DNA from: Phormidium sp. OSCR
GTDB taxonomy: Bacteria > Cyanobacteriota > Cyanobacteriia > Cyanobacteriales > Geitlerinemataceae
DNA length: 64,000 nucleotides
Reading direction: 5' to 3'
Assembly (NCBI GenBank): GCA_001314905.1
Contig: LJZT01000007.1
Location: 17,453-81,452 of the forward strand
Shown: in pieces, positions 4,450 to 46,472 of the stretch
Numbering within the stretch: the first letter of the stretch is position 1
Layout of the letters: every line of letters starts with the position of its first letter
The notes under the pieces: model-generated
Databases searched by the model: none
Seen by the model: the letters and a program-made list of their open reading frames with translations, nothing else
What the model was told of the DNA's origin: nothing
Made by a program: the position numbers and the translations under genes

Positions 4450-6009
4450 TCACGATGTCCAGCCAACAGCAGATGTACTCACCACCTGAGTCAAATCCGG
4501 GGTAATCTCGACCGTGTAATCAAACGGAGACTCAAGGCTCGTATCAACGCGAGTCATCGCCGAACCGTCAGGATTGCGGGGACTGAAAAAGGACTCCGCA
4601 CTGACGACGAGATTTCCCGCATCGTTACTGGTAATATCCGTCACCGTCAGGGTGTTGCTATTCCCATTACTCAACACCGCCGAGAGATAGGCTGCATCCA
4701 CGAGATCCCCCGTGGCGGGGTCAATGCGACCTAACACCCCGACTTTCGCACCCCCACCGGCGCCATAACTCCTGAGCCAGTTCTGAGTCGCATCTCCCGA
4801 GGCTCGTCGCCAATCCTCACTGGGAGTTCCTTGAGTTCCATCGGTACTAAAGACACCATAGAGACGGGTTCCATCCCAGAACAATCCCAAACCCCGTCCA
4901 TCAGCACCCGTGGACTCATAATCAGTGCGAACCCAGTTGTTATCGGGGTTTTCACTATCAAAACTGGCAATAATCGGGTCTTGGTTATTGCCAGTTTCCT
5001 GCCAGAATCCAATATAAATCGTTTGACTTCCCAGAGTTAGGCGTTGTGCATCCGAGGCGGCGATGGTGGCTTCGTCGGTGTTGGGAGTAAACTGGACTGC
5101 ACTAGAACTAATGGCCGCTGGGAGAGGAGAGAGGGGGTCATCGGGAGTATCATCTGCGAGTCCCAAATCGGGGTCGTTGTCGAGATCGAAATCGAAGTCC
5201 AGCAAATCCGGTTCATCCGTATCTACATTGATATCGAGTTGAACAGCGGGGTCACTGATATCGTTGAGAATTGCCAGAAAGTCCCCACTGGTGCGATCGC
5301 GAATCACCGTATCGCCAGCAAACTCCCCCTCACCCGCCAGAAACTCCAGACGCTCTGGGGTCAATCCTTCAAACAAGGCCAAAGAATCCTGATTCGGCGT
5401 ATAGTCGACAATCAAATCCGCCTGAGCGAGTTCAGAATTTCCCATCCCTGGCCTGAGAACAAAGGTATTCGCACCCTCTCCCCCAATCAAAGTATCAGAA
5501 CCCGAACCACTATCGAGAGTATCATTACCCAAATCCCCACTCAGGAGATGATTCCCCGCCTCAGCCAAAAGCCAATCATCTCCCTGGCCACCATAGAGAC
5601 TATCCTCTCCTGACCCCGCATAGAGGGTATCATTTCCCTGATTACCAAACAAGAAATTCTCACCCTGGCGACCTTGAATCAAATCATCATCCGCCGCACC
5701 CACCAGAGTATCGTTACCGGCACCACCTCGTAGAGTATCATTACCAAAATCGCCACTGAGCAGGTTATTTCCCACCTGAGCAAAGAGGAGATCGTTATTT
5801 TGTCCCCCATACACCGCATCTTGTCCGTCCCCCGCTGCGAGGACATCATCACCAGTCGCTCCAAATATCCAGTTATCTCCGCCAACTCCGGCGATGGTAT
5901 CAGTTCCCGCCGTTCCCAGAATCAGTTGACTGTCGGAGTTTCCCGCAAAGGGATTATCGCTGTTGTCGAGGGTGACAACAGTCAGGGTGTTGAGATCAAA
6001 TGAAAGCAT
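4450..6009 (-). CDS. RTX (hemolysin-type calcium-binding repeat) protein with conserved C-terminal domain
   Basis: A 519-residue protein. Residues about 25-190 are a run of RTX nonapeptides of the form G-G-x-G-x-D-x-L/I (for example GGAGNDTLVG), which bind calcium in a parallel beta-roll. Between about 190 and 250 is the post-repeat ADLIVDYTPNQDSLALFEGL segment typical of these proteins. An acidic Asp/Leu linker follows. The last ~210 residues form a domain shared with the next gene (about 70-80% identical by eye), containing the NWVRTDYESTGADGRG and VGVLGRIDPATGDL segments. There is no N-terminal signal peptide, so type I secretion is the likely route (family knowledge). It is a tandem duplicate of the gene at 6071-8092, lying 61 bases downstream on the same strand. 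Confidence 0.85.
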   Translation of the reverse strand: MLSFDLNTLTVVTLDNSDNPFAGNSDSQLILGTAGTDTIAGVGGDNWIFGATGDDVLAAGDGQDAVYGGQNNDLLFAQVGNNLLSGDFGNDTLRGGAGNDTLVGAADDDLIQGRQGENFLFGNQGNDTLYAGSGEDSLYGGQGDDWLLAEAGNHLLSGDLGNDTLDSGSGSDTLIGGEGANTFVLRPGMGNSELAQADLIVDYTPNQDSLALFEGLTPERLEFLAGEGEFAGDTVIRDRTSGDFLAILNDISDPAVQLDINVDTDEPDLLDFDFDLDNDPDLGLADDTPDDPLSPLPAAISSSAVQFTPNTDEATIAASDAQRLTLGSQTIYIGFWQETGNNQDPIIASFDSENPDNNWVRTDYESTGADGRGLGLFWDGTRLYGVFSTDGTQGTPSEDWRRASGDATQNWLRSYGAGGGAKVGVLGRIDPATGDLVDAAYLSAVLSNGNSNTLTVTDITSNDAGNLVVSAESFFSPRNPDGSAMTRVDTSLESPFDYTVEITPDLTQVVSTSAVGWTS

Positions 6010-41134: not shown

Positions 41135-41274
41135 GCCAGACGATAGCCCTAAACTCAACGTATCTCACTGTTTCAACCGTATCCTAGAGATTTCGACGCG
41201 ATCGCAGGGTGTTCACAACCGGGTATAGGGTGTGGCTACGGTTCATTGTTTCTTGTTAATTGTTCATTGCTATC

Positions 41275-42621
41275 ATGCTAGAAATCGAAGGTATTTCTGA
41301 CATTTATGGAAGTTCGCTGGACAGCTTAAATCTCAACTCAAAACTGCAAGACTTAGCCCTAGAAAGCTTTAGTCTTGACATTGAAGTTCCCGGAAGCTTT
41401 TTAGTTCAGCAATTCAATCAAAACCCCTTGCTTCCCGGCGCAATTCTTCTAAAAAACAATAAATTTTTTGGCATGATTTCTCGTCGAAAATGCCTAGAAA
41501 TCATGAGTCGTCCCTATGGGATTGAGCTCTTCTACCACCGTCCCATCCAATGTCTCTATGACTTTGTAAAAACTGACCATCTCTCCTATCCCGGCGACAG
41601 CGACATTTTCACAGCCGCGCGTCAATGTTTGCAGCGATCGCCAGCCAACCTCTACGAACCCATCATTGTCATTCTCAGAGATGGCTCTCACCATCTCCTC
41701 GACGTTCATAAACTTCTCATCGCCCAATCCCAACTCTATGAAATCGCCAGTCAACTCCTAGAACAACGCCGTAAAGAACTCGATCGCGCCAATGCCGAAG
41801 TTCAAGAACTCAACGAACGTCTAAAAGCCGAAAACCTGCGTCTGAGTAGCGAAGTTCACATCGCGCACCAATTACAACAAATGCTACTACCAACAGACCA
41901 AGAACTCGCGCAAATCCAAGACCTAGACATCGCCGCTTACATGGAACCCGCCGCCGAAGTGGGCGGAGACTACTACGACATCCTACCCCATGCCAACGGC
42001 GTTAGAATCGGCATTGGTGACGTCACCGGCCATGGCCTCGAAAGCGGTGTTTTCACCATCATGGTGCAAACGGCCATCCGCACCCTTCTGTCGGCCGAAG
42101 AAACCGATCCGGTTCGCTTCCTCAGCATCCTCAACCAAACCATCTACGACAACGTCGAACGGATGAACTCTGATCGCAACCTCACCCTAAGTCTAATTGA
42201 CTACAACCAAGGGCAACTGCAACTGAGCGGCCAACATGAAGAAGCCATCCTACTGCGGCAAGACGGCTCCCTCGAACGGATTGATACCCTAGATCTCGGA
42301 TTTCCCATCGGACTCGACAACGACATCGACGCCTTCATCCACCCGATTCAACGAAACCTCGAGCCTGGAGAAACCCTGATCCTCTACACCGACGGCATTA
42401 CCGAAGCCGAAGCCCCCAACGGGGACTTCTACGGCATCGAGCGTCTGTGTCACATTGCCCGTCAATATGCCCATTGCAACGCCCAAGGAATCCAAGACGC
42501 GATCATTAAACACCTAAAAGATTATATCAACGGTCACAAAATATACGACGACATCACCCTATTAGTGTTAAAACGGAAGCTTCAGGGTAAACCGTCACAC
42601 CATACCCAACCCCAAACATAA
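41275..42621 (+). CDS. PP2C/SpoIIE-family protein phosphatase with N-terminal CBS-like input domain
   Basis: A 448-residue cytosolic phosphatase. Residues about 25-155 hold the pattern PGSFLVQQFNQNPLLPGAILLKNNKFFGMISRRKCLEIMSRPYG, reminiscent of CBS-type sensor modules. A coiled coil (about 155-205, ELNERLKAENLRLSSEV) leads to the PPM/SpoIIE catalytic domain, with metal-binding aspartates in EVGGDYYDIL and GIGDVTGHGLESG and a late Asp in LILYTDGITEAE. Such enzymes dephosphorylate STAS-domain antagonists. The catalytic domain closely resembles that of the next gene (same coiled coil, same EVGGDYYD and VTGHGLESG). I chose the ATG at 41275. Confidence 0.9.
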   Translation: MLEIEGISDIYGSSLDSLNLNSKLQDLALESFSLDIEVPGSFLVQQFNQNPLLPGAILLKNNKFFGMISRRKCLEIMSRPYGIELFYHRPIQCLYDFVKTDHLSYPGDSDIFTAARQCLQRSPANLYEPIIVILRDGSHHLLDVHKLLIAQSQLYEIASQLLEQRRKELDRANAEVQELNERLKAENLRLSSEVHIAHQLQQMLLPTDQELAQIQDLDIAAYMEPAAEVGGDYYDILPHANGVRIGIGDVTGHGLESGVFTIMVQTAIRTLLSAEETDPVRFLSILNQTIYDNVERMNSDRNLTLSLIDYNQGQLQLSGQHEEAILLRQDGSLERIDTLDLGFPIGLDNDIDAFIHPIQRNLEPGETLILYTDGITEAEAPNGDFYGIERLCHIARQYAHCNAQGIQDAIIKHLKDYINGHKIYDDITLLVLKRKLQGKPSHHTQPQT

Positions 42622-42725
42622 CAGCGGCAGACTCAACAGGCGATCGATGCGCCTACCGTGACGGGGGGCGGATTGTGTGTCACAATTTAACCTGAATTTA
42701 ACTGAACCTTGCCTGTTTGCTAACT

Positions 42726-45290
42726 GTGATTTCCTTGAGCGTGTTCTCACTCGTGTTCTCGATCGTACAACCACATGGGAGTGAGGGGAGCAGTTACCCA
42801 GTGTTCGATATTCTGTGGGTTCTAGTTTGTGCCGGTTTAGTCTTCCTGATGCAGCCGGGGTTCATGTGCCTCGAATCAGGACTAACACGCTCAAAAAATA
42901 GCATTAACGTTGCCGTAAAAAACTTTGCCGACTTTGGCATTTCGGTCTGTCTGTTTTGGGCCTTCGGCTACGCCCTCATGTTCGGCTCCTCCATCCTCGG
43001 CTGGCTGGGACAAAACAGTTTTTTTTTGGCGGTGGACAACGATCCCAAACTGGCCGCCTTCTTTCTCTTTCAAGCGATGTTTTGTGGAACCGCCACCACC
43101 ATCGTCTCGGGAGCCGTCGCTGAACGAATTAAGTTTGGCACCTATCTCGCCGTGGCCTGTCTCACCTCAGGGCTAATCTACCCAATCTTTGGTCATTGGG
43201 CCTGGAACCTAAAAGTCTCTGGCTTAGCCGGCGGTTGGCTCGGACAACTCGGCTTTGTCGACCTCGCCGGGAGTACCGTCGTCCATAGTATCGGCGGTTG
43301 GATCTCCCTGGCGGTTCTGTTGGTCATCGGCCCCCGCGTGGGGCGCTTCCTCCCCGACGGAACCCCGCAAAAAATCCAAGGGTCGAATTTACCCTTATCT
43401 GTCTTGGGAACCATGCTCCTCTGGCTGGGTTGGCTCGGCTTTAATGGAGGCAGTACCCTGGCCTTCAACGATCGCGTCGCGGCAATCATGGTGCATACGG
43501 TTCTGGCCGGAGTCGCTGGGATGATTACCGCCACCTTCTACAGTTGGTCCCGCCATCGCGTCCCGGAAGTTGAACTGCTCCTCAATGGCTCCCTGGGGGG
43601 TCTCGTCTCCATTACCGCCTCCTGTGATGTCGTCACCACCTCCGGCGCGGTTGTCATCGGCATTGGTGGCGGTCTAGTGACGCTCCTGGTTAGTTCCCTC
43701 CTCAAGCGCTTTCGCATTGACGACGCCGTTGATGCGGTTCCCGTTCACCTCGGTGGTGGTATTTGGGGAACCCTGGCTGTGGCCATTTTTGGCGATGTCG
43801 AGCTGTTGGGAACCGGACTGAGCCACGGAGAACAGTTTTTAGTGCAACTGCTGGCGGTTCTGGTGGCGGGCCTGTGGGCCTTTGGCATCACTTACCCCCT
43901 ATTGCGCTTTTGCCATTCACGAGTTCCCCTGCGCGTCTCCCCGGAAGATGAGGAGATGGGGTTAAACGTCTCCGAACATCGCGCCAAAACCGAAATCTAT
44001 GATCTGTTCCAGGTGATGGAGTCGCAAGCGCAAAACCAAGATTTGAGTTTGCGGGTTCCCGTTGAACCCTTCACCGAAGTTGGACAAATCGCCAAACGCT
44101 ACAACCAGGTGATGGAAGCCCTCGAAGATGCTGTCAACCGCACCAATGCCATTGTTAACACCGCCAGCGATGCGATTTTGACCTTTACCCCCGATGGCTT
44201 GAAAATCACCAACGCAAACCCCAGTACAGAGGCGATTTTTGGCTATCCGCGCCAGAAAATTCTCGGACAATCCCTCATGTCTTTGATTGATTGGGATGCC
44301 AGTTCTCAGAAGGCAGACCCTCTGCCTCGTCTATTACTCGAAGGACGGGCCGAACTGGTGGGCCGGCGGGCCGGTGGAAACGGGATTCCCCTGGAAGGGA
44401 CGGCTACTAAGGTCTGTGTGGGAGACCATTCGTTCTATACCGCCATTTTCCGGGATATTTCTGAGCGTAAGCAAGCTGAAACAGCTCTGGCTCAGGCTAA
44501 CGAAGAAATTACCCTTCTCAACGATCGCCTGCAAGCGGAAAACCTCCGCCTGGGGGCAGAATTGGACATCACCCGTCGTCTGCAAAAGATGTTGCTGCCC
44601 AAGAATCGGGAACTCAAGGCGGTGATGGGGTTAGAGATTTCTGGCTATATGGAGCCGGCCACGGAAGTCGGAGGCGACTACTACGACGTTCTCTGTCACG
44701 ATGGTGGCGTCAAAATTGGCATTGGCGATGTCACCGGCCATGGTCTCGAAAGTGGGATGCTGATGTTGATGGTACAAACAGCGGTGCGGACGCTGTTGGA
44801 GAATGATGAGGTCGATCCCAAACAGTTCCTCAATACCCTCAATCGCACCATTTACGGCAACGTACAACGCATGGACTCTGATCGCCACCTCACCTTAGCT
44901 TTACTGGACTACCGCGATGGGGAAATTCGCCTGAGTGGCCAGCATGAAGAAACGATTGTTGTCCGCGCTACGGGGGAGATTGAGCGGATTGACACCATCG
45001 ATTTGGGCTTCCCCATTGGCTTGGAGGCCAATATCAGTGAGTTCATCGATGAGAAACTCCTCAAACTCGATTCGGGCGATGTGGTGGTGTTATATACCGA
45101 CGGGATTACCGAAGCCGAAGACGAGCAAGGCCGCTTCTATGGGATTGAACGACTCTGCGATGTTGTGCGACACTATTTGCGTGAACCCGCTGAGATCATT
45201 CGACGGGCAGCCATTGAAGACCTACGCCGTCATATTGGGCGACAAAGGGTTTACGATGATATTACTTTGTTAGTAATGAAACAAAAGTAG
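42726..45290 (+). CDS. Ammonium transporter fused to PAS and PP2C/SpoIIE phosphatase domains
   Basis: A fusion of about 854 residues. Residues ~1-410 are a complete Amt domain with about 11 helices. It has SGLTRSKN, FQAMFCGTATTIVSGAVAER, the Asp and first pore His in VDLAGSTVVHSIGG, and the second pore His in VDAVPVHLGGG. A HAMP-like helix (about 430-465) and a PAS domain (about 470-590, AIVNTASDAILTFTPDG) follow. Then come a coiled coil and a PP2C domain (about 625-854) with EVGGDYYDVL, GDVTGHGLESG and VVLYTDGITEAE. There is no ATG near the N-terminus; GTG at 42726 is my choice, with TTG 42717 and GTG 42741 as alternatives. It is followed 23 bases later by an anti-sigma-like ATPase gene. Confidence 0.92.
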   Translation: MISLSVFSLVFSIVQPHGSEGSSYPVFDILWVLVCAGLVFLMQPGFMCLESGLTRSKNSINVAVKNFADFGISVCLFWAFGYALMFGSSILGWLGQNSFFLAVDNDPKLAAFFLFQAMFCGTATTIVSGAVAERIKFGTYLAVACLTSGLIYPIFGHWAWNLKVSGLAGGWLGQLGFVDLAGSTVVHSIGGWISLAVLLVIGPRVGRFLPDGTPQKIQGSNLPLSVLGTMLLWLGWLGFNGGSTLAFNDRVAAIMVHTVLAGVAGMITATFYSWSRHRVPEVELLLNGSLGGLVSITASCDVVTTSGAVVIGIGGGLVTLLVSSLLKRFRIDDAVDAVPVHLGGGIWGTLAVAIFGDVELLGTGLSHGEQFLVQLLAVLVAGLWAFGITYPLLRFCHSRVPLRVSPEDEEMGLNVSEHRAKTEIYDLFQVMESQAQNQDLSLRVPVEPFTEVGQIAKRYNQVMEALEDAVNRTNAIVNTASDAILTFTPDGLKITNANPSTEAIFGYPRQKILGQSLMSLIDWDASSQKADPLPRLLLEGRAELVGRRAGGNGIPLEGTATKVCVGDHSFYTAIFRDISERKQAETALAQANEEITLLNDRLQAENLRLGAELDITRRLQKMLLPKNRELKAVMGLEISGYMEPATEVGGDYYDVLCHDGGVKIGIGDVTGHGLESGMLMLMVQTAVRTLLENDEVDPKQFLNTLNRTIYGNVQRMDSDRHLTLALLDYRDGEIRLSGQHEETIVVRATGEIERIDTIDLGFPIGLEANISEFIDEKLLKLDSGDVVVLYTDGITEAEDEQGRFYGIERLCDVVRHYLREPAEIIRRAAIEDLRRHIGRQRVYDDITLLVMKQK

Positions 45291-45313
45291 CTTCTTCGGG
45301 AGTCTTGGCAGAT

Positions 45314-45895
45314 ATGACGCAAATTTTCGGGGACTATTGTGAGGGTGAGCCAAATAGCCCAGAGTTTTTAATTATTGGCTTTTCCCCCAGTTCGGTTCCT
45401 CTGAAACAACGTTGGCGCAATAATGGACTGTCGGCAGATTTTATGGCCGACTATTTGACGACGTTCTTTTTGGGCAATGAGGACAACCCGGCGTCGATGC
45501 GCCGTCAGGCAGAAATAAAGAGTGCGGTGGGGTTCATCGCGAATGAACTTTTGGAAAATGCGATGAAGTTCACCGATGAACGCTCGGCGTTTCCCATTAG
45601 CATTCAATTACAACTTCATCCAAACCATTTGATGTTTTTTACGACCAATAGTGTTGAACCGGAGAAAATTGCTCAGTTTCAAACTTATCTTGAGGAACTC
45701 ACGTCTTGCGATCCGGAGGAAATGTATGTCCGTCAGTTGGAGAAAAATGCCCTAGAGGACACGGGTACCAGTTCTCGTTTGGGATATCTGACGATGATGA
45801 GTGATTACATGGCCCGTTTAGGTTGGAAGTTTGAGACGGTTCAGAAAGATCCTGAAGTTGTTGCGGTGACAACAATGGTTCAGCTTCCGGTTTAA
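45314..45895 (+). CDS. slr1658-type regulator (anti-sigma-like ATPase fold)
   Basis: A 193-residue protein similar to the cyanobacterial slr1658 superfamily. The HATPase-like N box is NELLENAMKFTD (about residues 80-92), and DTGTSSRLGYLTMMSDYM near 155 is a degenerate G-box region. The glycine-rich lid is weak, so ATP binding or kinase activity is uncertain. By analogy with SpoIIAB/RsbW it would bind or phosphorylate the STAS protein encoded next. The ATG at 45314 lies 23 bases after the Amt-phosphatase stop, indicating one transcript. An upstream TTG at 45305 is less likely. Confidence 0.75.
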   Translation: MTQIFGDYCEGEPNSPEFLIIGFSPSSVPLKQRWRNNGLSADFMADYLTTFFLGNEDNPASMRRQAEIKSAVGFIANELLENAMKFTDERSAFPISIQLQLHPNHLMFFTTNSVEPEKIAQFQTYLEELTSCDPEEMYVRQLEKNALEDTGTSSRLGYLTMMSDYMARLGWKFETVQKDPEVVAVTTMVQLPV

Positions 45896-46124: not shown

Positions 46125-46472
46125 ATGGAAATTAAGACGGACGATTATTGTATTTGCTACGACCCGGAGACGACGACGGTATCCTGTCAAGGTTCACTCC
46201 GACTCAGTGGAATGGCTGAATATGCTCCCATTGCGGAACTTCTCGATGAGGTCGCAAGTCGAGAGCAATCGCCGGTGGTTCTCGATTTACAAGGGCTAGA
46301 ATTTCTCAATAGTTCGGGCATTAGTATGCTCTCGAAATTTGTGATTAAGGTTCGCCATAAAAAAACTGTGACGATGATTGTCCGTGGCTCGAAAGGGATT
46401 CCCTGGCAAGGAAAATCTTTGAAAAATTTACAACGGTTAATGCCATCTCTCACCCTAGAATGGGACGAGTAG
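46125..46472 (+). CDS. slr1659-type STAS-domain regulator (anti-sigma antagonist-like)
   Basis: A 115-residue single-domain protein. VVLDLQGLEFLNSSGISMLSKF is the STAS signature, with the conserved phosphorylatable serine in NSSGI (about residue 63), as in SpoIIAA and RsbV. It matches the cyanobacterial slr1659 superfamily. It should be the switch substrate: phosphorylated by an anti-sigma-like kinase and dephosphorylated by PP2C phosphatases. It follows the slr1658-type gene after 229 bp. That gap contains two CCTAGG palindromes and a GAGG-CGATCG hairpin-like site, so it may have its own promoter. Confidence 0.82.
   Translation: MEIKTDDYCICYDPETTTVSCQGSLRLSGMAEYAPIAELLDEVASREQSPVVLDLQGLEFLNSSGISMLSKFVIKVRHKKTVTMIVRGSKGIPWQGKSLKNLQRLMPSLTLEWDE

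Follow-up and report, generated by a model that had tools for sequence, protein, structure and literature searches.

The fusion gene and its domains

In the genome of the cyanobacterium Phormidium sp. OSCR, one gene joins an ammonium transporter (Amt) domain to a PP2C phosphatase of the SpoIIE type. It lies in a stretch of 64,000 nucleotides (contig LJZT01000007.1, positions 17,453 to 81,452; hereafter the window) and is followed directly by genes for a predicted kinase and a STAS protein. Its product is probably an ammonium receptor whose phosphatase acts on that STAS protein. Coordinates are positions within the window, where all features described lie on the plus strand; residue numbers are those of the 854-residue fusion protein.

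The fusion gene (42726..45290) is a single frame, uninterrupted from a GTG at 42726, or alternatively a TTG at 42717, to the stop at 45290; the GTG start is conserved in four relatives (loci L015-L018). The Amt domain (residues 30-421; 42813..43988) passes the cut-offs of the Amt/Rh family (Pfam Ammonium_transp, PF00909, 401 bits; TIGR00836, 421 bits) and was aligned to PDB entries 6eu6 and 8qj3. It is followed by a HAMP-like two-helix connector (residues 423-477; 43992..44156), a PAS domain (residues 482-580; 44169..44465; Pfam PAS_9, 41 bits), a long helix (residues 579-623; 44460..44594) and a SpoIIE/PP2C domain (residues 659-852; 44700..45281; Pfam SpoIIE, PF07228, 131 bits). The connector and the long helix are features of the predicted structure: the former appears as helices 423-437 and 451-477, and the latter runs into the PP2C domain and may form a coiled coil.

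For conservation analysis, the window protein was aligned with 51 relatives selected for having both Amt and SpoIIE. Pfam HAMP (PF00672) has no match over its cut-off in the window protein itself and matches 13 of the 52 sequences. The full-chain model, built with 52 sequences, displays the Amt fold, the two-helix connector, the PAS region, the helix and the PP2C fold (mean predicted local distance difference test score 80.8); at a predicted template modelling score of 0.53, the relative placement of the domains is unreliable. Open frame, Pfam domains and model together bear out the first-pass annotation, which had read all these parts from one frame and had suggested such a prediction.

The metal-site aspartates D651, D668, D792 and D844/D845 align with SiaA-PP2C and are invariant in the 52 sequences, none being lost. 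With PF07228 above its cut-off, a PP2C fold and these aspartates, the domain belongs to the SpoIIE/PPM family, its best fold matches being SiaA-PP2C and, tied with it, Rv1364c. In the Amt domain, alignment to AmtB and Ks-Amt5 places the pore residues at F119, W160, F239, S243, D179, H187 and H341. The last three, the conserved Asp and the two pore histidines that the annotation had reported as kept, are likewise invariant.

A conserved block with a predicted partner-switching set

The two adjacent genes directly 3' of the fusion encode the Slr1658/Slr1659 pair. The product of the first (45305..45895) matches NF052618 (slr1658_cyano) with 282 bits against a cut-off of 200; its invariant N-box and its fold point to a SpoIIAB/SiaB-like kinase. 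The phenotypes described for Slr1658 concern iron and redox; the literature searched names slr1658 in 4 papers and slr1659 in 1. The second (46125..46472) encodes a STAS protein that matches NF047705 (slr1659_superfam) with 168 bits against 100 and aligns with SpoIIAA; it has an NSSG motif with S63 and S64 invariant, and is the likely substrate of the phosphatase. Upstream of the fusion lies a second SpoIIE phosphatase gene (41260..42621), assigned by Pfam, the first 240 residues of whose product match no Pfam family even at an E-value of 1. The host genome holds one slr1658_cyano match, two slr1659_superfam matches (only that of the window above cut-off) and nine SpoIIE matches, eight of them above cut-off.

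Scanning genome contigs yielded 494 relatives, and 80 of these were kept. Amt-SpoIIE is present in 17 of these 80 loci, all cyanobacterial by title: 16 are single frames, and in Arthrospira (L074) Amt-PAS and PP2C lie in two separate frames. The kinase gene falls within the fetched stretch in 10 of the 17 SpoIIE-fused loci, against none of the 63 loci without the fusion (about 42 of them cyanobacterial by title; flanks of at most 7 kb, some contigs short). All ten kinase-linked loci also have the STAS gene, and eight have the second SpoIIE gene. Such conservation upholds the proposal, made in the annotation, that a phosphatase output ties the Amt domain to a partner-switching set.

At the level of whole genomes, Amt-PP2C occurs in at least 5 of 291 sampled genomes, a lower bound given that three candidates were scored per genome, and Slr1658 is present in all five. 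This co-occurrence is weak, three of the five being of one genus, and it is weakened further by Slr1658 in 16 of the 22 genomes that have another long Amt match.

Other observations concern the same genes. In Arthrospira sp. PCC 9108 (L074, contig C1) the Amt-PP2C and Slr1658 genes are each split in two frames; a joint decay of the pathway is possible. CheB-like proteins share a run with SpoIIE and Slr1658 in L151, L154, L158 and L181, Pfam confirming CheB for L151 and L154. A search for the NtcA box GTAN8TAC found none near the operon and 3 in the window versus 4.3 expected.

Stalked cyclases and the likely output of the switch

At 24 of 59 loci, the run that holds Slr1658 also includes nucleotide cyclases. 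GGDEF and class III cyclases with one or two DLEILLETTxxHxD motifs on their stalk accompany the Slr1658/Slr1659 genes, as neighbours or in the same genome, across L146-L195, L024 and contig C97 of the host genome (L264, L272). By regular expression, 15 of the 21 GGDEF proteins in Slr1658-containing stretches have two such motifs 53-60 residues apart, three have one and three none; 9 of the 14 class III cyclase proteins have at least one. The motif also occurs in two proteins that are neither. At L170, near Slr1658, proteins of 377 and 395 residues (4750-5880 and 1301-2485 of that locus, both on the minus strand) carry the stalk motif and match neither the GGDEF nor the cyclase query; they may represent a further output.

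We built a profile from 15 stalks and ran it on the 291 sampled genomes (E ≤ 1e-6, 15 candidates scored per genome). It matches 36 genomes, 35 of which have a full-length Slr1658 match. Full-length Slr1658 itself was found in 44 genomes (42 above cut-off, two just under), nine of them lacking the stalk, and a single genome has the stalk and no Slr1658. Counted by genus, all 24 stalk genera have Slr1658, and the stalk appears in none of the 84 genera without it. Presence is biased, since the profile derives from Slr1658 neighbours, and absence elsewhere is the informative half of this comparison, in which kinship is corrected at genus level only.

The host genome has one stalk match, a GGDEF protein of 261 residues encoded on contig C97. 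A GGDEF gene with two motifs follows the Amt-PP2C, kinase and STAS genes of L024 at about 680 bp. These two proteins score 147 (C97) and 164 bits (L024) with the SiaD model NF038266, far under its cut-off of 290, and the match falls on the GGDEF part. In L015-L018, the closest of the named relatives, the runs contain no GGDEF or cyclase gene.

Searching the PDB with Slr1658, both as a sequence and as a profile, gave no match. The model of the kinase fits SiaB and anti-sigma-F equally well; because of this, and because Slr1658 co-occurs with stalked cyclases, the switch is likely to act on a nucleotide cyclase, by analogy with SiaABCD a diguanylate cyclase, rather than on a sigma factor. Were the relay instead to end on a sigma factor of the SigB/SigF type, Slr1658 would act as the anti-sigma factor, antagonized by the STAS protein. 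Foldseek, run on the kinase model, ranks anti-sigma-F and SpoIIAB first and does not return SiaB among the 50 best. Against such an ending, no sigma factor is found among the nine window neighbours scanned, and Slr1658 stands in cyclase runs and co-occurs with the stalk family. We consider it unlikely.

Receptor or transporter

According to the available text of PMC5764959, Ks-Amt5 binds two NH4+ through Q24, E31, N47, D50, T51, T109 and T112, and has lost transport though its selectivity filter, Phe gate and His pair are retained. The counterparts in the window protein are Q43, E50, N66, D69, F70, T125 and S128: five of the seven are identical, one Thr is replaced by Ser and one by Phe. At all seven positions the window protein is identical to Sd-Amt1 (PDB 8qj3). 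The Q, E, N and D positions read V, Y, S, S in AfAmt1 and I, Y, V, T in AmtB by alignment. Among solved structures, those nearest to the window Amt are the receptors Sd-Amt1 and Ks-Amt5, ahead of every transporter.

The Q-E-N-D set is present in all 63 unique SpoIIE-fused Amts and in all 136 with another long tail, sequences collected for their likeness to the window protein. A second sample, drawn without regard to such likeness, came from 79 genomes: of 75 places with a PF00909 match, seven partial ones were omitted and 68 fetched, and 5 of the 68 were dropped for want of a full alignment to the Amt profile, which leaves 63 (10 with a tail of more than 100 residues and 53 plain). Q and D are found in 10/10 tailed Amts, four of whose tails measure 115-184 residues and have no assigned output, and also in 12 of the 53 plain cyanobacterial Amts. 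The site had been considered as a mark of receptors alone, being present in each of 199 fused Amts against 4 of 34 plain Amts (the four possibly partial rows); that claim was dropped upon the 12 of 53. The NH4+ site is common to fused Amts without being exclusive to that group.

The C-terminal motif separates fused from plain Amts better than the Q/D site. Fused Amts have GLN (10/10), in nine cases as GLN...H with no G following, and 51 of the 53 plain ones have GLD, GID or GMD...HG. Nine plain cyanobacterial Amts of about 500 residues (L246, L250-L257) resemble Ks-Amt5 at the site, which reads QENDATT, carry a GID...HG tail and lack a fused output; perhaps they act as receptors through a separate partner.

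Judged by these sequence comparisons, the fusion protein is likely an ammonium receptor rather than a transporter. From the retained pore residues, the first-pass annotation had instead favoured a transceptor, an Amt domain that imports ammonium and reports the flux to the phosphatase. The window protein does keep the seven pore positions, as do 61 of the 63 SpoIIE-fused Amts (the other two have Cys at Ser243), and two of the three bulky residues that block Ks-Amt5 (Y30 and F34) are Leu here. The argument from the kept pore nevertheless fails, because Ks-Amt5 keeps the same residues and does not transport. The nearest solved relatives are receptors, the genome encodes a separate plain Amt, and the C-terminal motif sides with the fused group. 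Import by this domain thus appears improbable.

Less probable still is that the PAS domain is the real sensor, of redox, light or a metabolite, with the Amt part a relic anchor. PAS_9 is matched in 36 of the 52 aligned sequences and Slr1658 is linked to redox and iron phenotypes, but the Amt site and pore residues are invariant across the alignment, and some Amt-SpoIIE relatives have no Pfam PAS match (P0067, P0151).

Distribution of the fusion and exchange of outputs

The annotation had proposed to look for the Amt, PAS and PP2C architecture elsewhere, and it recurs in many genomes. A search with the C-terminal half returned 6624 proteins at E ≤ 0.001; the best 40 of the 120 best that we list all have Amt and SpoIIE by precomputed Pfam matches, the nearest at 93% identity. 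A frame error, a chimera or an assembly accident is thereby ruled out. The organisms named among the listed relatives are cyanobacteria: Baaleninema, Coleofasciculus, Roseofilum, Hormoscilla, Geitlerinemataceae and, lower down, Spirulina subsalsa (P0067). Among the 80 kept loci, the SpoIIE profile has no match in the Amt frames of the non-cyanobacterial ones; Pfam assigns nine such frames to histidine kinase parts, kinase with receiver, or GGDEF-EAL. We did not find an Amt-phosphatase fusion described in the literature searched, which left most subscription journals outside.

The Amt half matches, among the best 120 of 7601 proteins considered, Amts fused to SpoIIE, to HisKA/HATPase, to kinase with receiver and class III cyclase, and to PAS with class III cyclase. 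Some of these fusions are very long (P0126, P0127, P0130 and similar) and unite a histidine kinase with a receiver and a class III cyclase in a single chain. We placed 104 selected Amt regions on a tree by a quick method, with two long branches flagged. The SpoIIE label requires 5 changes on it, 3 of them forced by starred branches, and all five output labels together require 11; gain is not distinguishable from loss in these counts. By this phylogeny, outputs on the Amt and its connector have evidently been exchanged repeatedly. Coiled-coil linkers, it is proposed in PMC12143880, allow sensors to be swapped among phosphatases, kinases and GGDEF domains.

Proposed pathway

We now propose a route from ammonium to the phosphatase and beyond. 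NH4+ would pass the outer selectivity filter and settle in the intramembrane site formed by Q43, E50, N66, D69, T125 and S128, without crossing. The C-terminal region of the Amt domain (GLN-x3-H, residues 412-418) would move as a result, and the movement would be relayed via the HAMP-like pair, the PAS domain and the helix to the PP2C domain, switched through dimer geometry as proposed for RsbU. The Slr1658-type kinase (45305-45895) would keep the STAS protein (46125-46472) phosphorylated, and the fusion phosphatase together with the second phosphatase (41260-42621) would free it. Free STAS protein may then bind a stalked cyclase, the host candidate being the 261-residue GGDEF protein of contig C97. 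Our choice is that ammonium activates the phosphatase, rather than inhibiting it, although this sign is a guess.

The steps differ in strength. The receptor-phosphatase step is well supported by the anatomy of the protein, the STAS protein as substrate is favoured by gene linkage, and a cyclase output is suggested by co-occurrence and analogy. Taken together, we hold with moderate confidence that the fusion is an ammonium receptor whose phosphatase acts on the STAS protein against the kinase.

Several observations weigh against this reading. The fusion is not beside the kinase gene in 7 of the 17 named loci; six of the seven genomes have Slr1658 above cut-off elsewhere, and Arthrospira has two fragments. 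Q and D in plain Amts mean that the site is no proof of a receptor, and the Leu pair replaces two blockers of the receptor Ks-Amt5. With PAS_9 matched in only part of the alignment, the PAS domain may be dispensable or the true sensor, and the Foldseek ranking of the kinase leaves SiaB out. The C97 GGDEF protein is encoded on another contig than the fusion, has one motif copy and reads GGEEI at its active site. Finally, Amt proteins are trimers, which is at odds with a PP2C switching proposed for dimers.

More widely, cyanobacteria may own an exchangeable ammonium receptor, an Amt domain and connector to which kinases, cyclases or phosphatases are attached. In the present lineage, this receptor would drive an undescribed Sia-like switch, made of Amt-phosphatase, Slr1658 kinase, Slr1659 STAS protein and two-site stalked cyclase, leading from outside ammonium to cyclic di-GMP without sigma factor or two-component system. 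This wider picture, drawn from sequence, is more tentative than the receptor-phosphatase reading and falls somewhat short of an even chance; the pathway as such may be new.

Comparison with known systems

Two receptors resemble the fusion most closely. Sd-Amt1 of Shewanella denitrificans (PDB 8qj3 OFF, 8qj4 ON, 8qpf) has a chain of 644-661 residues, with an output part shorter than that of the window protein, and its alignment to the latter stops before PAS and PP2C; we take its output to be a diguanylate cyclase. Ks-Amt5 of Kuenenia stuttgartiensis (PDB 6eu6) shares with the fusion an Amt covalently attached to a signalling output. In Ks-Amt5 this output is a histidine kinase, for which the available text of PMC5764959 notes no HAMP, whereas the window protein has HAMP-like, PAS and PP2C parts, Phe in place of T51, and Leu in place of two of the three pore blockers. 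Amt-based receptors with a kinase output were already known; a phosphatase output, on an Amt and connector with repeatedly exchanged outputs, makes the question of how one sensor serves unrelated outputs directly testable by swaps.

The PPM phosphatases of the RsbU/RsbP type have the same order of sensor, linker and PP2C. No Amt is among the sensors discussed in the available part of PMC12143880, and the dimer there stands against the Amt trimer here; the fusion poses the problem of coupling a trimeric sensor to an output that is believed to act as a dimer.

For the switch as a whole, the closest likeness is SiaABCD of Pseudomonas aeruginosa, which in the available texts (PMC8457831, PMC7647112) likewise comprises a PP2C phosphatase, a GHKL-type kinase and a STAS-like partner. 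SiaA and SiaB are best or equal-best fold matches of the window PP2C domain and kinase, although both window proteins are far under the family cut-offs (NF038263 for SiaA, 52.6 bits of 700; NF038262 for SiaB, 23.7 of 85). SiaC is a DUF1987 protein, whereas the only models that the window partner matches are those of STAS and anti-sigma antagonists. Here the input is an Amt receptor, and the cyclase is encoded elsewhere in the genome, not in the operon. The SiaD stalk has two conserved motifs to which SiaC binds (PMC8457831), and the two stalk repeats of the Slr1658-associated cyclases recall these two sites. Its association with stalked cyclases gives the little-studied Slr1658/Slr1659 pair a concrete biochemical target.
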